A stretch of 64,000 nt of DNA from Lepus europaeus (lineage: Eukaryota > Chordata > Mammalia > Lagomorpha > Leporidae), in assembly GCF_033115175.1 (NCBI RefSeq), contig NC_084836.1, forward strand, positions 70,417,297-70,481,296, given 5' to 3'. This document shows, in pieces, positions 10,975-56,515 of this stretch (positions are counted from its first letter, which is position 1; each line of letters starts with the position of its first letter). The notes below the pieces were generated by a model, which saw nothing but the letters and a program-made list of their open reading frames with translations, was not told the origin of the DNA and made no database searches. The position numbers and the translations under genes are program-made.

Positions 10975-11383
10975 CTCTTACCCTTCCCACTTTGATACAT
11001 CTTATATAATTATCATGTGTTGCCCAAACTGAGAAATTCCCATTGCTACACTGTGTGTATAATTTTGTGACACTGACTCACGCAGGCAGATTCTTGTAGT
11101 CGCCACTACAATTAAGATCCAAAATTGTTCCATCATCTCCACTGAGCCACCTCTTCACTGTCACACCCACCTCCCCACCATACCTAACTCCCTACGCATA
11201 TTTTCACTTCCTATTATTTCGCTGTTTTTAAGTGTTATATACATTGAATCATACGGTATATCCTTGTGAGATTTTTTTTTTTTTTTGCCTCCATGTAGTG
11301 ACTCTGAGATCCATTCAAGCTGTCGCACAAATAAGTATTTCATTCATTTCTTTTTACTGTTGAATGCTAGTTCAGGTATGGGC
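10975..11383 (-). mobile_element. Old antisense L1 fragment
   Basis: Text around CATTGAATCATACGGTATAT and GAGATCCATTCAAGCTGTCG matches the antisense L1M 3' region. It resumes after the SINE at 11521-11575 (TGAAGGACATTTTGGTTGTT). Confidence 0.55.
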
Positions 11384-11520
11384 CATCTTCCGCTGCCTTC
11401 CCAGGTGCAGTAGCAGGGAGCTGGATTGGAAGTGGAGAAGCCAGGACTTGAACTGGCGCCCATATGGGATGCCAGCATCACAGGCAGCGGCTTAACCTGC
11501 TATACCACAACACTGACCTC
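11384..11520 (-). mobile_element. CSINE head half, at palindrome edge
   Basis: This reverse 5' half is inserted in or next to L1. Its last 19 bases belong to the left palindrome arm. Confidence 0.8.
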
Positions 11521-11575
11521 TACCATTAACTTACTGAAGGACATTTTGGTTGTTTCTGATTGGGGGATACTACAA

Positions 11576-11750
11576 AATGTATGGTTTGATGTGCTTTGTC
11601 CCCTAAACGTTCATGTGCTGGAAGCTTGGTTCCCACTGTGCTGATGTTAAGAGATGGTGGGACCTTTAAGAGGTGTGGGTGGGAGGTGGTTAGCTGCTTC
11701 CTCTCCAGACGCCCCTGCTCTTGCAATGCTTCCCAAAATCATGGCTAAGT
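11576..11750 (+). mobile_element. MaLR-like LTR fragment (left copy of palindrome)
   Basis: TATGGTTTGATGTGCTTTGT at the start and GGTGGGACCTTTAAGAGGTG further in resemble MaLR/MST-type solo LTRs. The family name is from memory and uncertain. Confidence 0.35.
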
Positions 11751-12036
11751 GGGCCAGCGCTGTGGCATAGCGGGTAAAGCCGCCGCCTGCAGGGCCAGCA
11801 TCCCATATGGGCACCAGTTCAAGTCCTGGCTGCTCCACTTCTGATCCAGCTTCCTGCAGAAATTGACCCAAGTGCTTGGGCCCCTGCACCCTCGTGAGAG
11901 ACATGGAGGAAGCTCCAGGCTTCATATCAGCCCAGCTCTGGCTGTTGCGGCCATCTGGGGAGTGAACCAGTGGATGGAAGACCTCTCTCTGTGTCTCTGC
12001 CTCTGTAACTCCACCTTTCAATAAAAGAAATAAATA
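11751..12036 (+). mobile_element. CSINE, internally deleted, left of palindrome centre
   Basis: This is a forward copy. About 35 bases are missing after TCCAGCTTCCTGC, and the tail ends at the palindrome centre. Confidence 0.88.
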
Positions 12037-12363
12037 GTTTTTTAAAGATTTATTTATTTTATTTGAAAGTCAGAGTTACACACAGAGAGGAGAGGCAGAG
12101 AGAGAGACAGAGAGAGAGAGAGAGTGAGAGATTTTCATCCACTGGTTCACTCCCCAAATGGTCCAAACCCAGGAGTCAGGAGCTTCTTCTGGGTCTCCCA
12201 CATGGGTGCAGGGGCCTAAGGACTTGGGCCATTCTCCACTGCTTTCCCAGACCATAGCAGAGAACTGGATCAGAAGTGGAGCAGCCGGGACTCGAACCGG
12301 CGCCCATATGGGATGCTGGCCCTGCAGGCGGCGGCTTTACCCTTTATGCCACAGCGCTGGCCC
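12037..12363 (-). mobile_element. CSINE, right of palindrome centre
   Basis: This is a reverse copy placed tail to tail with the previous one. Confidence 0.9.
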
Positions 12364-12535
12364 ACTTAGCCATGATTTTGGGAGGCATGGCAAGAGCAGG
12401 GGCGTCTGGAGAGGAAGCAGCTAACCACCTCCCACCCACACCTCTTAACATCAGCACAGTGGGAACCAAGCTTCCAGCACATGAACGTTTAGGGGACAAA
12501 GCACATCAAACCATAGCATTTTGTAGTATCCCCCA
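12364..12535 (-). mobile_element. MaLR-like LTR fragment (right copy of palindrome)
   Basis: This is the reverse-complement copy of the left fragment, lacking 19 bases. Identity with it is very high. Confidence 0.35.
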
Positions 12536-12577
12536 ATCAGAAACAACCAAAATGTCTTTCAGTAAGTTAATGGTAGG

Positions 12578-12638
12578 GGTCAGTGTTGTGGTATTAGCAC
12601 TGCAGGCGGCGGCTTTACCCGCTACGCCACAGCGCTGG
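12578..12638. mobile_element. Two rearranged CSINE head pieces
   Basis: A forward head scrap (GGTCAGTGTTGTGGTAT) is fused at 12594/12595 to a reverse head scrap (TAGCACTGCAGGCGGCGGC and on). This is the right breakpoint of the inverted duplication. Confidence 0.75.
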
Positions 12639-12739
12639 TATTAAATCATATAACTTAATAACTTTAGTATAATTTTCCATCTACTTGCAAAGCAGATTGA
12701 CAGAGATCATGGTTCATTCCTCGGGGACATCAAAAGGAC

Positions 12740-13260
12740 CAGGAAGGGGGTTCAGGTTGTGGAGCGTGGCGGGAAAAAGTCCGCCCAAGCCCTTTCATCC
12801 CCCGGCGGCACCCTCAGCGTCAGGTGCACACGGACTGCAGAGCTGGGGGCTGGGAAACGTGCAAGGACAACGGCAGCGCGGGCACGACCAGAGGCTCACG
12901 CCGAGAGCGGCGTCGACCACAGCTTTCCCCGACGTTCACGCCCCGCCGCCTCTCCCGCTTCCCGCACGGACGCTGGCCGCGGCGCCCCCACAGCCCTGCC
13001 GGCTTCCCCGCCGCTGGACGCCGCCCCGCGGGGCCCGCACCGCGCCGGCTCACCGGCGCCAGGGCGCATGCGCGGCCTTCCCGCTCGCGCGCCGGCTTCT
13101 CCTCTCCCGTCTGCGGCTGCGCACGCTTCGCCGCCTCGCTGCGAGCGCCCGGGAGATGGGCGCGGCCTTCGAAAGTTCGCGAAGCCCCGAGGAGCAGGAC
13201 GCCCCCGCCCTAGCCACAACGGCCTGTGGCTCCGGAAGAAATAAGCCTTTTCCCCGGGAG
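12740..13260. promoter_or_regulatory. Orphan CpG island
   Basis: About 520 bases of dense CpG have no coding exon attached. They contain a perfect palindromic NRF1 site GCGCATGCGC at 13064-13073 and an ETS-like CCGGAAG near 13231. On the minus strand, a consensus donor (GCCG followed by GTGAGCC, the intron side beginning at 13053) lies just past the NRF1 site, which suggests a minus-strand noncoding transcript. The island sits 5.5 kb upstream of BCDIN3D. Its promoter role is inferred. Confidence 0.55.
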
Positions 13261-13371
13261 TCACTGGGATTTGGGGGTTGGTTGGTAGTGCGCCTAGCCC
13301 ATGCGTGTTTTATGGAAAAACTGCCTTACCTCCCAGGTCTCCGTTTCTTCATCAGAAAATGAGGGGTTAGG

Positions 13372-13632
13372 AACAGGGTCTGGGGCGCAGCGGGTAAAGC
13401 CAACGCCTGCGGTGCCGGCATCCTGTAGGGACGCCGGTTCGAGTCCCAGCTGCTCCACTTCCCATCCAGCTCTCCACTACGGCCTGGGAAAGCAGCAGAA
13501 GATGGCCCAAGTCCTTGGGCCCCTGCACCCATGTGGGAGACCTGGAGGAAGCTCCTGGCTCCTGGCTTTGGATCAGCTCAGCTCTGGCTGTTGCAGCTGT
13601 TTGGAGAGTGAACCACCAGCAATGGAAGACAC

Positions 13633-18388: not shown

Positions 18389-18580
18389 GCTAGGGGACGG
18401 CGCTGTGGGAGTAAACCAGTGCTGGTCATCCCGTATGGACACTGGTTCGAGTCCCGGCTGCTCCATATCCGATCCAACTTCGGCCGTGTTTGCGGCCATT
18501 TGTGGAGTGAACCAGCGAATGGAAGATGGATCTCCCCCATCCCCTTAAATAAATCTTAAAAAAAAAAAAAAAAAAAAAAA
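18389..18580 (+). mobile_element. CSINE, internally deleted
   Basis: The head and B-box (GGTTCGAGTCCCGG) are joined to the 3' end with about half the body missing. A 20-base A-run ends it just before the BCDIN3D CpG island. Confidence 0.85.
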
Positions 18581-18599
18581 GTGAATGACATCGCTAAAA

Positions 18600-19090
18600 A
18601 CCGACCCGCTGGGGATGCGGCTAGGGTTCGGTGAGGCAGGCCCGCACGTCAGCAGTGCGCAGGCGCACACAGGCCGCGCCCACCCGGCCGACCTCGCCCC
18701 CCCCGCGCGCGCACGCGCACGCGCACGCGCACTGGCGCCGCGACGGCCCTCGCCGGCCGCGGGGGCCTGGCTTCCGGTTCCGCCTCCCGGGACTGATGGC
18801 GGCGTCCGCGGAGCTGGCCGGAGGGGGCGTTCGGGAAGCCGCGGGCACGGTGGAAGAACGAGTTCTGGAACCCGGAGCCGCCCCGTTCGGCAACTTCCCT
18901 CATTATTCCCGCTTCCACCCTCCGGAGCAACGGCTCCGCCTCCTGCCCCCGGAGCTGCTTCGACGGCTCTTTCCTCCCGAGGGTCCCGAGAAGAGGGCGA
19001 TCCTGGGGCTCGACGTGGGGTGTAACTCCGGGGTGAGTGAGCGGGCGGGATCGGAGCTCCGGGAGCCTGGTGGCTGACTGCCTCCGTGTC
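18600..19090 (+). promoter_or_regulatory. BCDIN3D: CpG-island promoter of BCDIN3D
   Basis: This is a dense CpG stretch covering the first exon. Visible elements are an NRF1-type site TGCGCAGGCGCA at 18656-18667, an alternating GCGCAC tract at about 18703-18731, an ETS-type CTTCCGG at 18771-18777, and a YY1-like GATGGCGGC that overlaps the start codon at 18795-18803. There is no TATA box, which fits a broad housekeeping promoter. The motif calls are by eye. Promoter identity is inferred from position directly ahead of the coding start. Confidence 0.75.
18796..19032 (+). CDS. BCDIN3D: BCDIN3D exon 1 (RNA 5'-monophosphate methyltransferase, N-terminal part)
   Basis: This exon encodes residues 1-79 of the Bin3-family SAM-dependent methyltransferase BCDIN3D. 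The enzyme is known to methylate 5'-monophosphate ends of RNA, cytoplasmic tRNA-His best and also reported for some pre-miRNAs. The exon holds the family-typical PFGNFPHYSRFHPPEQRL stretch (about residues 31-48) and ends exactly in the SAM-binding motif I, GLDVGCNSG (71-79). The ATG at 18796 was chosen because its product begins MAASAELAGG and matches the family's N-terminus; the frame stays open upstream to 18631, but that part looks like CpG-island sequence, not protein. The exon closes in phase 0 at GGG followed by GTGAGT. The N-terminal 25 residues are the least conserved part of the family as I remember it. Confidence 0.93.
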
Positions 19091-20253
19091 CACTGTGGGC
19101 CCTCCTGGGCATGACGTCACACCCCGAAGCTTTCTCAAAGCCTGACTGTGGTCACCAGGCTCCGGCCACCATCTCGCCTAGGACTCCTGCTGGGGCGGGG
19201 GTTGGGGGGATCCTCGACCACATTCTATATTCCTGCTTCGCCGCCCCTCGGGGCCAGACCCCAGGTGGAAAGGACTTCCGGAGACCCACGTTTGGGGACT
19301 GCGTGGCGGGTGGGATGAACCAGGGGTGACAGAATCAGGCCGGCCGTAAAGACACGTGTGTGTGTGCAGGACGGAGCCCTGAGTCAGGTGCATATTTATT
19401 AAAAAAAAAAAAGCAGTGAGTGGACGGACGGTGGAGAGGATCCAAAAGGAAAATACCGCAGGGAGGCATTGTCACCCTTACCGCAAAGTGTTCTTGGCCC
19501 TGTAATGGTTATAGTCAAACCACATGCAAAATAAGGAAATGTCTCTTTCACACCTGTTCACCGCTGTTGACCACAGCGGATCCCCTAGCGGAGCAGCCTG
19601 GCCCTATGAACGCAGGCGCTGTTATAAGCTCCGTCTTTCCAGCCCCGGAGCGGAGGGGAGGTATGCAGAATTTTACTACGTTGATGGCCTTTGGCAGGAG
19701 AGACTTCAGCGAAAGGTTCAAGACCTTGAGAGACACGTGGCTGTAGTCTGGGATGAGCTGATAGGTGGGTGCCCCGGGGGGAGGGGGTCCCTGCAAACAT
19801 GTCTCTACTGTGATGATGGAGGGAGCCAGAGGAGGAAGGTTCCAGAAGATAAACTGGAGGCTTGGGTTTTCTTAGCAAGGCATGAAGATACCAGCAGAGA
19901 GATGAAACGTATGAGTAATCCAGTTAACCAAGGCAGTGCTTCCCAGACCTGTGTATTTACAGAGCTCTCAATTTTCTATTACCAAAAACAAAAAAAAGTT
20001 TGCCCTGGATAAAGTAAACAAATTCAAAATACAAAAGTGTTACATAGTAGAAAGTAAAGCCTCTACTTGCAGCCGTAAATCTTCCTTTTTCCCCACACAG
20101 TGGCCCACTGTGGTTTCTGGGTATGCGCCCTGCATGTGTAAATATCCCCTCTTCTAGTTTTAACAGTTTAGCACACAGTTTTTCACTTTGTTTTTTTATT
20201 TAATCATTTGCATATCAGCATTCTTTAACAGCTTCATAATATTGTGTTGTATA
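19033..20253 (+). other. BCDIN3D intron 1, first non-SINE part
   Basis: This is intron sequence after the GTGAGT donor, without interspersed SINEs. It includes an A-run at 19402-19413 and an unexplained sense open frame (19524-20012). A splice-acceptor-like site ends at 19576 and a donor-like GTGGGT begins at 19765. No family was recognised for the open frame. Confidence 0.5.
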
Positions 20254-22635: not shown

Positions 22636-23202
22636 GATCTGAGTGTGGCTCTGTACAAACACTTCCTTTCCTTGCGTGACGGGGAGACCTGCTCAGATGC
22701 CTTAGGAGATCTCCGTCTCCTCTGCTGTGACATAGACCCGGTGCTGGTGGCGCGAGCTGAAAAGGAGTGTCCTTTCCCGGATGCCTTGACCTTTGTCACC
22801 CTGGACTTCATGAATCAGAGGACCCGCAAGGCTCTCTTGAGTTCTTTCTTAAGCCAGTTTGGACGTTCGGTTTTCGACATCGGCTTCTGCATGTCCGTAA
22901 CCATGTGGATTCACCTGAATCACGGGGACCGTGGCCTGAGGGAGTTCCTGGCCCATCTCGCCTCCCTCTGCCGCTACCTCCTTGTGGAGCCGCAGCCCTG
23001 GAAGTGTTACCGGGCCGCCGCGCGGCGTCTGCGAAAGCTGGGACTCCATGACTTTGACCACTTCCAGTCCCTCACCATCCGAGGAGACATGGCCGGGCAG
23101 ATTGGGCAGATCCTGACCCAGGAGCACGGCATGGAGTTGGTATGCTGCTTCGGCAACACCAGTTGGGACCGCAGCCTCCTGCTCTTCCGGGCAAAACCAT
23201 AG
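22636..23202 (+). CDS. BCDIN3D: BCDIN3D exon 2 (catalytic core; early stop)
   Basis: This exon follows the acceptor TCCTCTAG and adds 188 codons (residues 80-267), completing the Bin3 methyltransferase fold. Visible motifs are CDIDPVLV (110-117), the acidic-loop residues of the SAM pocket; LDFMNQRTRK (135-144); FDIGFCMSVTMWIHLNHGD (159-177); and the late LLVEPQPWKCYRAAARRLRK block (194-213), typical of Bin3 proteins. The predicted protein is 267 residues, about 25 short of the roughly 290 I recall for mammalian BCDIN3D, because TAG at 23200-23202 follows FRAKP. The frame after that stop stays open for another 22 codons and still resembles the family tail. The catalytic core is intact, so the gene looks functional with a shortened C-terminus. 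There is a single intron of 3.6 kb. Confidence 0.94.
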   Translation, partial: DLSVALYKHFLSLRDGETCSDALGDLRLLCCDIDPVLVARAEKECPFPDALTFVTLDFMNQRTRKALLSSFLSQFGRSVFDIGFCMSVTMWIHLNHGDRGLREFLAHLASLCRYLLVEPQPWKCYRAAARRLRKLGLHDFDHFQSLTIRGDMAGQIGQILTQEHGMELVCCFGNTSWDRSLLLFRAKP

Positions 23203-33024: not shown

Positions 33025-33889
33025 TCTCCACACAAAATCTCCCATTAACTTCTGCTTCCCAGCCCTCAAGGGTGATTTGTTCACCGTCCCATACCAATAG
33101 CAATAATCTGTTCTTTCCTGCTTGAGTCTCTTTGTGTCCTCACTCTGCCTGAATCCTCTCTGACCTTCAAACCCCATTTTAAATAAGAAGCCTCCTTCAG
33201 AGACAAACTTAACCAACCCTAGCCAGTCTGAACACCTTATGTTCCCTGAGTTTCTGTGTTCCCTCTGCGGACGAACACACTTTAAATCACATCCCGTGAA
33301 CACCCGCAACAGAAGCAAGTTTAATACAATGGGCAGACCGTGCCCAGGGATCCCTTGTATTTTCCTGTGGAACCCAGTTCAGAACCTGCACTGCCTAACC
33401 TGTAGGTACACTGCATGTCGGTCGGGACATTATGGTATCCAAAGATGCTTAGGAACAAATGAGAATGGGATGCAGGGGGCCTCCGAAAGGGGCCTTCGTG
33501 CGCTTCTGGTTTTCTGCAGGTGGTTGGGACTGGTCCCCCACTGCTATAGAAACAAGGCTGCATCCTTTTTCTGCCCAGCCCTCCCCCCCCAAAGCAGCGA
33601 GGACACGGCCAGCAGAGCTCTCGGAAGAGCGGAGCCTGATCCTAGCGCCCCGTTTTCCACATTACTCCGGGAAGACCCAATCCTCGCAGCGGAACAAGGA
33701 GGCGGGAGCGTTTAAGGCCAAGGAGGCACTCCAACCTCTTCCCCAGGATTTACACCCAACACGTATGCAGGAAGGCAAATTACCAACACTACAGACACAC
33801 GTGCACGCCCAGCCCCACAGAGGCAGACGCGCATGCCTGCGTGCCCACCCGCCCCGACTTAGTTTGCTTTGCTCTGGACGCCCCCGTTG
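33025..33889. other. Sequence upstream of the NCKAP5L CpG island
   Basis: GC content rises toward the island. No exon was recognised. Confidence 0.5.
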
Positions 33890-34900
33890 CGCCCCCGCTC
33901 TGCGTCCCCTCCCCCAGCCGAGGAGGTGCCCCAGGCCCCGCCAGGCCGGACGGGAGCGCTTCTCCACAGGGGGAGGGGAGGTCCTTCCCGCCCGGGCGGA
34001 AGCGCCTTGCGCCAGCCGGGCAGACTTCACTCTCGTCCTGGGAACATCTGGAGCGGGCTGGGAGGGGCGCGCACCCGGGGCGGGCGCGGATTGGCTGCGC
34101 TGGAGGAGGGAGGCGGGGCCAGGGCGAGGGGCGGGGCTCACTGGCCCCTTTAAAGCCTTGACATCAAGAGGCGGCTCCGGCACCCCCTTCTCTGCCCCCC
34201 GCCCCCGAGCCGCGGCCATGGACCCGGCGGATCCGGCCTGCCCTGGCCCCGCTGGACATCTGATTTCTGTGAGTTCCGGGCCGACTTGGGATTTAAAGGG
34301 CGACGATGGGGCGGTGGCGGGGGGAGGGGGGGCGGTCTGTAAGCTCCGGGCGGAGCCTGGGGGTGTGGAGGGTGAGGCTCTGGCGGCAGCCGTGGGTCCG
34401 AGGGGGCGCCACGGCTTTCTGCTCGCACCTCGCTGCGCGCCCCTCCCTCCCGCCGCGCTCTCCTCCCGCCCGGGTCGGGGGGGGGGTCCCCGCTGCGACT
34501 CGTCCGCCCCCACCCCACCCCCGCCCGCCCCCCGCGCTATCCTCGCGCACACTCCGTGGCCCCGGAAGGGAAACTTTCGGGAGTGGGGGATGTTCCGGGG
34601 GCCGGCCGCCCTCCCTCTGTGAAAGACTGACCTTGCCCCAGCCGCGCACCGCGCCCCACCCGCATCCCACCGTCCGGTACCGCTTAGCGGAGCCGGGTTG
34701 TGCGTGTGCGCGCGCGTGTGTGTGCGTGTGTGTGTGTGTGTACGCGGGTGGGGAGGTGCTGTCCCCAAAGCGCAGGCGCGGGAGCGAGCCTGGGGCTCCT
34801 CTTCGCACTCCTTCCAGTCCCCGTGGCCTGGGGCGGTAGGGCGTGGGGGAGGCGGAGAGAGGCGGAGAGACCGGGAGTCCACGCGTAACCCTGCCGAGGT
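33890..34900 (+). promoter_or_regulatory. NCKAP5L: CpG-island promoter of NCKAP5L
   Basis: This CpG-dense kilobase has an inverted CCAAT box (GATTGG, 34089-34094), GC boxes at about 34111-34120 and 34131-34139, and a TATA-like TTTAAA at 34149-34154. That arrangement would place transcription start near 34180. A downstream tract alternating GTGTGCGCGCG and TG lies at 34698-34743. It is assigned to NCKAP5L because it is the only CpG promoter on the correct side of the gene's coding exons. That link is an inference across 24.6 kb. Confidence 0.65.
34180..34268 (+). other. NCKAP5L: Probable NCKAP5L first exon (5' UTR or alternative N-terminus)
   Basis: The start is approximate (from the TATA-like element); the end is set by a donor, CT followed by GTGAGT at 34269. 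It contains GCCATGG at 34218, a strong start context, and 17 open codons (MDPADPACPGPAGHLIS) ending in phase 0. Joined directly to the exon at 58910 this would read in frame into the standard NCKAP5L start, through GLTSEA. Whether it is translated or only leader cannot be told here. Confidence 0.45.
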
Positions 34901-35474
34901 TTTGCGGGGCTGCACGCCGAAGAGAAGCTGAGGGAGGGAGGCAGGCAGGGACGGGGCAGCGCCTGGAAAACAGGCCCTCAGGTCCTGGCTGCCTTGCTGG
35001 AAGAATGCAGAGAATGTATCTGTGCCCGGCACTGCCTTGGCTCAGCCCCGCTAGGAAATCGACCCCAGCTCCCCTCTCCTTCCCCAAAGCCCTGGCACTG
35101 CCCCAAGGGCACAGAGCGCCCTCACCTCCCACGGGCCTGGTTTTCCAGGGTGCTCAGGCCTGCATCACTGAACCCACCCAAGCCTGGACGCTGCTGCTTG
35201 CTAGAGGCCGGCCGGCCTGCCTGGGGAACCAGGGTCCCCTGGCTGGAGAGGCGATCTCTGTGTTCTCGCCTCGCTACTCAGCCCCCAGCCCGGGGTGGGT
35301 CCTCCCTGCCAGCCAGAGGAAGTGGTTTGCAGCAAGAGGTCCGGGAGAGGCAGTGACGGGGTCAGCGTCTAACCATTGTGTGACCAGTTCTTTGGGGAAA
35401 ATGAATCTAATGCCGGTACTTGGCTGCAGACAGACCGTGACTTGTAGGTGTTAACGCCTACTGGCTCCCCCCTC

Positions 35475-38539: not shown

Positions 38540-39178
38540 TTTTTTTTTTTTTTAAGATGTATTCATTTATTAGCCGGCGCCGTGGCTCAGTAGGCTAATC
38601 CTCCGCCTTGCGGCGCCGGCACACCGGGTTCTAGTCCCGGTCGGGGCACCGATCCTGTCCCGGTTGCCCCTCTTCCAGGCCAGCTCTCTACTGTGGCCAG
38701 GGAGTGCAGTGGAGGATGGCCCAAGTCCTTGGGCCCTGCACCCCATGGGAGACCAGGAGAAGCACCTGGCTCCTGCCATTGGATCAGCACGGTGCGCCGG
38801 CCGCAGCGCGCCTACCGCGGTGGCCATTGGAGGGTGAACCAACGGCAAAAAGGAAGACCTTTCTCTCTGTCTCTCTCACTATCCACTCTGCCTGTCAAAA
38901 AAAAAAAAAAAGATGTATTCATTTATTAGAAAGGCAGAGTGATGGGGCAGGGAGGGTGGATCTTTCCTCAAATGGCCCAGGGCTGGGCCAGGCTGAAGCC
39001 AGGAGCCAGGAACTCCGTCTGAGCCTCCCACGTAGGTGTCAGGGTCGCCAGCATTTGGGCCATCCTCTGCTGCCTTCTCAGGCACATTAGCAAGGAGCTG
39101 GATCGGAATCGGAACAGCCAGGAATCAACCAGCATTGTAAGCAGCAGCTTAACCCGCTGCACCATGACAGCAGTCCTT
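38540..39178 (-). mobile_element. CSINE split by a type B insertion
   Basis: The reverse tail at 38540-38572 and body at 38911-39178 are one element. The duplicated AGATGTATTCATTTATTA marks the insertion. Confidence 0.88.
38573..38910 (+). mobile_element. CSINE type B, nested
   Basis: This is a full forward type B copy with a plain A-tail. The perfect 18-base target duplication is at 38555-38572 and 38911-38928. Confidence 0.97.
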
Positions 39179-55440: not shown

Positions 55441-56515
55441 TCAAGGAAGGAGGATATTTCTTCAATGAGTTCATTTTCCAGGCCTGTGCATTTCTAAACG
55501 TGTCAAACACGATCAGGTTGTGAACACACACCAAGTTGGGCATGACACATTTTTATGATGTTAAAATAACAACGGACTTTGGATTGTTGTGGAGTGGTAA
55601 AAGTCAGCCTCGCACAGTGTCTCCTCCAACGATTGTTTTCAGAACCCCCACCCCATGCCACCGTGCTCCTCACACCGGGAAGAAGTGCTCCCCCTTTGTC
55701 ACCTCTGGTCTCAGGATCTCCAGCTGCTGCACCCCCCACCCCCACCCCGTAGGGTGGGAGGCAGAGGGCAGAGAAGGCTGGGGTTGGCCCTGGGAGCTGG
55801 GGAGTTGGGGGGTGCTGCCAGGACAGAGCAGGTGGGGCGCACGCTGAGATCCTCAGCCGCCCCTGCAGCGAGACCCCTTGCAGCTGAAGGCGTGAGACCC
55901 CTGCAGGTGAGAGGGCCCGACGCATAGTCCACCTGCGCATGAGCAGAGCCAGCGATGGCAGGCTCGCCGCACCCACTCCGCAGGCTCTGAGTCTGTGGCC
56001 GCTTGTGCTCGTGCGACAGGGCTCCGATCATCTCGCTTCATCCTTCCGCGGCGCTCTGCACTACGTATTCTAATCCCTAACTTCAGAGTCAAGGAAAGAG
56101 AAGCGGGATTCTAACCCTGACCGGTCCACCTGCAAAGCTCCGGGGAGCCTGCGCCCGGGCTCTGGAGCACACGGAGCTCACCGCGCACGGGGCAGGGGGA
56201 CAGCCGGGCCTGTCCAGTGTGCTGAGTGATCCCATCCTGGGACTGGAGCAGTGTCTTTTGCCTCTCGGGTCTGCTCTTCACCCAGGCCAGGGCTCCCCTT
56301 TCCAAGGGTGTTAGAGGAGAGTTGGACGCGATGGAGAGGAAGAAAGTGCACTCGGGACACGGCCGTTGTGTGGGAGAGGCAGCTTCCTGTTCCTCTGTTT
56401 CCTCGTGCAGGATGTGGACGTTGGCCTTTGCATCTGTGGCTGGGAGACTACATTCTCATCTGTACCCTGTTGGCTCCGGGCTGGGCTGGCTTTCTCTGCC
56501 TTGCCTGGTTTTCTT
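55441..56515. other. NCKAP5L intron 1 spacer
   Basis: SINE-free with modest CpG content near 55900-56200. No exon was confirmed. Confidence 0.4.

Follow-up and report, generated by a model that had tools for sequence, protein, structure and literature searches.

Within a stretch of 64,000 nucleotides of the genome of the hare Lepus europaeus (contig NC_084836.1, positions 70,417,297 to 70,481,296; the whole stretch is called here the window, and positions are counted from its first letter) we have found a near-palindrome of about 1.1 kb (11502-12594) that was probably made by a single fold-back copying event, a reading drawn from the sequence to which we give a probability of roughly 70%. The left arm (11502-11753, plus strand, 252 nt) consists of about 17 nt of the head of a short interspersed element (SINE), named C1, and of a stretch named U. 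The right arm (12361-12594, minus strand, 234 nt) is an inverted copy of U with a scrap of the C1 head (~12578-12594). Presumably the material carried by the arms is L1-like and LTR-like. As a preliminary description of this DNA had stated, the arms run into two SINEs placed tail to tail, one in plus orientation (SINE A, 11754-12043) and one in minus (~12044-12360). The last part of this minus SINE (12302-12360) repeats the head of A in inverted orientation; the rest (12044-12301, or only to ~12264 if a later junction is adopted) is the body of a different element, SINE Z, and a further minus SINE head at 12597-12638 is taken as the other piece of Z, interrupted by the copied block.

The inverted duplication is real and well beyond chance. 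The arms are near-perfect reverse complements, as described from the first reading, with 229 of 233 aligned bases identical, four substitutions (left/right, the right arm being reverse-complemented: 11519 T/12577 C, 11539 G/12557 A, 11725 A/12389 C and 11730 T/12384 C), one 1-nt indel and one 19-nt indel. The right arm was entered in this alignment as 12358-12594, and the three bases that remained unaligned belong to the SINE. The three terminal bases of the left arm (GGG, 11751-11753) may be the first ones of SINE A. For a self-BLAST of the window (E 1e-4) 72 SINE hits were masked, each extended by a margin of 12 nt and together covering 31% of the sequence. It listed the arms as the single inverted pair (E 2e-61), together with one direct pair of 44 nt at 84% identity. 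When U was searched across the window the two arms were the only matches, and searches with the flanks gave short or weak ones. This alignment and self-comparison, proposed with the preliminary description, thus place the arms well above the background, the SINE pairs of the window having mean identities of 66-79% depending on the stretch compared. The predicted fold of 11502-12594 (DNA parameters) is a single long hairpin of -538 kcal/mol, in agreement with the hairpin-forming ability that had been expected; 20 random windows of equal length gave -122 to -240, and two other tail-to-tail SINE pairs -219 and -166. The block of high similarity had been described as the arms, but it also takes in the heads of both SINEs, near-identity extending to ~11812, or to 11849 with the later junction.

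The limits of the copied block were located with the SINEs themselves, which we take to be rabbit C repeats. These repeats are described as the commonest SINE of the rabbit (PMC5568218). The window contains 36 near-full-length SINE hits, and a consensus was made from 34 of them, A and the minus SINE being excluded. Similarity along the element was judged against pairs drawn from the 41 other copies that extend to profile position 130 or beyond, with only sufficiently overlapping pairs compared (of 820, 731 for columns 1-56, 661 for columns 57-93 and 657 for columns 94-250). In columns 1-56 A and the minus SINE are identical at 54 of 56 positions, a value equalled by none of the 731 other pairs. 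Columns 57-93 show 33 identities in 37, a score that 38 of the 661 pairs equal, and columns 94-250 show 82 in 107, slightly under the mean of the other pairs (448/657 as high or higher). The outcome was unchanged when each copy was aligned singly with the consensus rather than within a multiple alignment. When a single switch point was fitted by likelihood, with the copied part fixed at 2% divergence, the copied block ended after column 56 (50-56) if all columns were used. From these comparisons we would place the first junction somewhere in columns 50-93, without a firm choice, and the copied length would be 311 nt (column 56) or 348 nt (column 93). Within 15 nt, at 11813-11827, four CpG-type bases are changed in A and kept in the minus SINE, a cluster that could be either a mark of the junction or clustered decay.

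At the other end the block is limited by the head of C1, a partial SINE of about 140 nt (11379-11518, minus; nhmmer hit 11379-11513, profile 2-136) that matches the window consensus at 113 of 133 positions. At the right edge of the right arm two opposed SINE heads meet (~12578-12594 and 12597-12638), as the preliminary description had it, but they are not directly fused, since bases 12595-12596 stand between them. This second junction (12595-12599) contains TGC or TGCT, common to Z and C1, plus one or two extra bases, all read by eye. The Z head (consensus columns 1-39, from the nhmmer hit and the alignment) stops at column 39-40, and across the insert the minus SINE body that is not A-like resumes after column 50-93. 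With the all-column departure point (50-56) the two pieces nearly meet, so that head and body are likely one SINE opened near column 40, with a loss of only ~10-17 nt. Column 37 fits this reading of a split element: the minus SINE and A have a G, present in 1 of the 34 other copies, while the Z head carries the base most often found there, T.

The fold-back event may be reconstructed as follows. The ancestral order would have been C1 (minus), U, A (plus) and Z (minus), with A and Z meeting at their tails. The event would have begun with a 3' end within Z, near SINE column 50-56 (or 81-93), left by a break or by a stalled nascent strand. This end would have paired, within its own strand, with the corresponding inverted stretch of A. 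Extension would then have run through the head of A and the whole of U and for ~17 nt into C1 (311 or 348 nt copied), and the new end would have detached and joined the remaining Z head through a match of 3-4 nt (TGC/TGCT). The product would be U copied in inverted orientation inside Z, that is, the present near-palindrome. The trigger may have been either a break or a stalled fork.

Several features expected of such an event are found at the locus. There is a nearby inverted copy far above background (4 differences in 233, the sole inverted pair in the masked window), and an inverted repeat suitable for priming is present at the departure point, A and Z being placed tail to tail and identical at 82/107 positions of columns 94-250. 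The point of return in Z (column 39-40) is near that of departure (50-56, or 81-93 with six columns masked). Furthermore, a 3' end inside Z could have paired with A because the two are about 77% alike and lie tail to tail with almost no spacer. In yeast single-stranded DNA the fold-back of inverted Alus is described as suppressed only above 25% heterology (PMC10164571). Yeast breaks are reported to yield fold-back templated inverted insertions in which the match at the capturing end is 0-5 bp, and for these smaller inserts the fold-back steps were proposed with genetic support (PMC11724301). A recent copying event in old repeat material, with breakpoints in SINEs, had been among the readings suggested from the start, and it agrees with the drop of identity inside the SINEs, near the point where the Z pieces would meet.

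We take the right arm as derived and the left one as the donor, because C1 runs on beyond the edge of the left arm (to 11379) and on the right is cut after ~17 nt, where it meets the opposed Z head. The 19-nt indel suggests the same direction. The motif TTAAGAG occurs twice in the left arm (11647-11653 and 11666-11672, 19 nt apart) and once in the right arm, and the gap falls between these repeats, as a right-arm deletion between short repeats would leave. The event appears to be much younger than the SINEs involved, since the divergence of the arms is 1.7% (four changes, 95% Poisson interval 1.1-10.2, equivalent to 0.5-4.4%), as compared with distances from the consensus of 12% for A, 9% for the minus SINE and 15% for C1 (median of the 41 other copies 15%, range 8-31%). 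If mutations arise at 1.7-3 x 10^-9 per site and year the age would span ~0.8-13 million years, four changes being too few for dating. For comparison, the Oryctolagus-Lepus split is put at 12 million years in a title within the reference list of PMC10435986, and the leporid ancestor at ~18 million years in the same source (PMC10435986).

An identical product would come from serial template switching at a replication fork, of the type of microhomology-mediated break-induced replication (MMBIR) or fork stalling and template switching (FoSTeS). Such a process would work in the opposite direction, going from Z to C1 and U by microhomology and returning to Z by SINE homology, without same-strand fold-back. 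The TGC/TGCT match at the far junction suits it, and at PLP1 a template switch between oppositely oriented Alus has been described (PMC6902434). However, it must begin on 3-4 nt, whereas fold-back begins on a long SINE pairing, and although the two processes cannot be separated from the sequence itself we hold fork switching to be rather unlikely. An older inverted duplication whose arms were homogenised by gene conversion seems less probable still, although it might overlay a fold-back event and the two are not mutually exclusive. The four substitutions sit toward the ends of the arms (11519, 11539, 11725 and 11730) and leave the middle substitution-free, as conversion might do, but both indels fall in the middle, four changes are too few to judge, and the identity drops where the one-event model places the junction. 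The least probable explanation, to be given very little weight, is an assembly artefact, that is, a fold-back or chimeric read or a misjoin. Palindromes are indeed difficult to sequence, and have been described as a serious obstacle to most methods of sequencing (PMC4057610), but in the assembled sequence, on which this was judged, the arms differ at four substitutions and two indels, one of them a tidy deletion between 7-nt repeats, and there is no N anywhere in the window. Of the three options that had been left open for this locus, a copying event is thus the best supported; gene conversion is unneeded, and an artefact is unlikely for arms that have their own differences.

Two other candidates were rejected. 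An inverted triplication by origin-dependent inverted-repeat amplification (ODIRA) would not agree with the two copies of U present in the window, to which the search for a third was confined. A retrotransposed inverted piece, for which a tail and a target-site duplication would be expected, is not suggested by an insert with SINE sequence on both sides and no tail (by reading, not scored).

Some points weigh against a single fold-back event as set out above. When columns 57, 60, 65, 71, 86 and 87 were masked the likelihood moved the first junction to column 93 (81-93); these six columns were picked after viewing the alignment, four having A or T in place of a CpG base in A only and two having TG in both elements. 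The agreement of 33/37 in columns 57-93 leaves both placements possible, and the later one implies a loss of ~41-54 nt from Z and a poorer fit of its pieces. The Z head is short (~40 nt), so its identity as one SINE with the Z body is likely rather than proven. The match at the capture junction, TGC/TGCT with its one or two extra bases, was read by eye without a control, and such matches are common by chance. Finally, the copied length exceeds both the maximum of 128 nt in the great-ape gold-standard set (PMC7954356) and the ~150 bp of the longest yeast cases (PMC11724301), as far as these sources list them.

Some further observations concern the surroundings. The 3' half of C1 is missing, and the tail with it; retroposed SINEs do not usually lack this part, and an older deletion is perhaps the cause. 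The sequence on either side of C1 is presumably one old L1 fragment. Adjacent SINEs form 18 tail-to-tail pairs in the window, of which four, A-Z included, have a spacer of at most 50 nt; the masked self-comparison, which covered the entire window, gave an inverted repeat at the A-Z pair only. Another tail-to-tail pair, with a spacer of 3 nt, lies at 38577-39168, where the masked search lists no inverted repeat. The motif AAATCAT is found to the left of A (11736-11742) and to the right of Z (12643-12649), with a shuffle p of ~0.01. It might be the decayed remnant of a target duplication that flanked A, Z having entered the A tail, a weak suggestion because a similar test of three other tail-to-tail pairs gave p values of 0.045, 0.64 and 0.72. 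To the right of the Z head, at a distance of about 60 nt, starts a CpG-rich stretch that is a possible promoter (12701-13450), and four others are found at 18451-19150, 22851-23150, 33601-35000 and 55851-56250. A Pfam scan of 10 of the 143 open reading frames of at least 110 amino acids found no family in those ten. Nothing observed points to a function of the locus.

The locus is probably a true, well-preserved, mid-sized fold-back insertion of a kind already known. Its donor, its priming repeat and its two junctions can all still be recognised, and so it shows how a close inverted SINE pair may become a kilobase palindrome. Its copied piece measures several hundred bases; the pieces in the great-ape (PMC7954356) and yeast (PMC11724301) sets, to the extent reported there, are mostly of tens of bases. 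Among human full-length Alu pairs with a spacer of up to 24 bp the reported inverted-to-direct ratio is 0.076 (PMC3215922), and fold-back insertion would be one possible fate of such close inverted pairs. Tail-to-tail SINE pairs might even prime fold-back repair recurrently in the germ line, a SINE pair being turned each time into a kilobase palindrome, so that SINE-dense genomes would gain palindromes in this way; we offer this as a speculation and consider it doubtful. If true, copied pieces several times longer than those recorded in the template-switch catalogue of PMC7954356 would be expected.

Precedents were sought in the open-access literature, and we claim no priority for a case of this size. 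In ODIRA as described in PMC10766186, palindromic junctions arise from inverted repeats and strand switching, as they would have done at the hare locus, but with ODIRA one would expect three copies, the middle one inverted, and an origin of replication, and here there are two copies of U. The template switching of genomic disorders, with its SINE-SINE and microhomology junctions (PMC6902434; MMBIR, PMC2621351), has in common with the hare locus a junction at which two SINEs are fused and, possibly, a second one with a short match; the events described in those sources are gene copy-number gains, whereas in the hare a few hundred bases were inserted locally. The fold-back inverted insertions of yeast (PMC11724301) resemble the proposed event in same-strand priming by an inverted repeat, in the inverted copy inserted at the break and possibly in the far-end match, which is of 0-5 bp in yeast. 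They differ in size (2 to ~150 bp, against ~311 or 348 nt), in the primer (a 10-bp imperfect repeat, against most of a SINE) and in being experimental, the hare event being reconstructed from one genome. In the four-point model of short-range template switching (PMC7954356) the gold-standard pieces have a median of 12 and a maximum of 128 nt, and the hare locus differs also in that its first switch would lie inside a SINE-SINE inverted repeat, but the path is the same: a departure, reverse copying and a return near the point of departure, which together make an inverted repeat.
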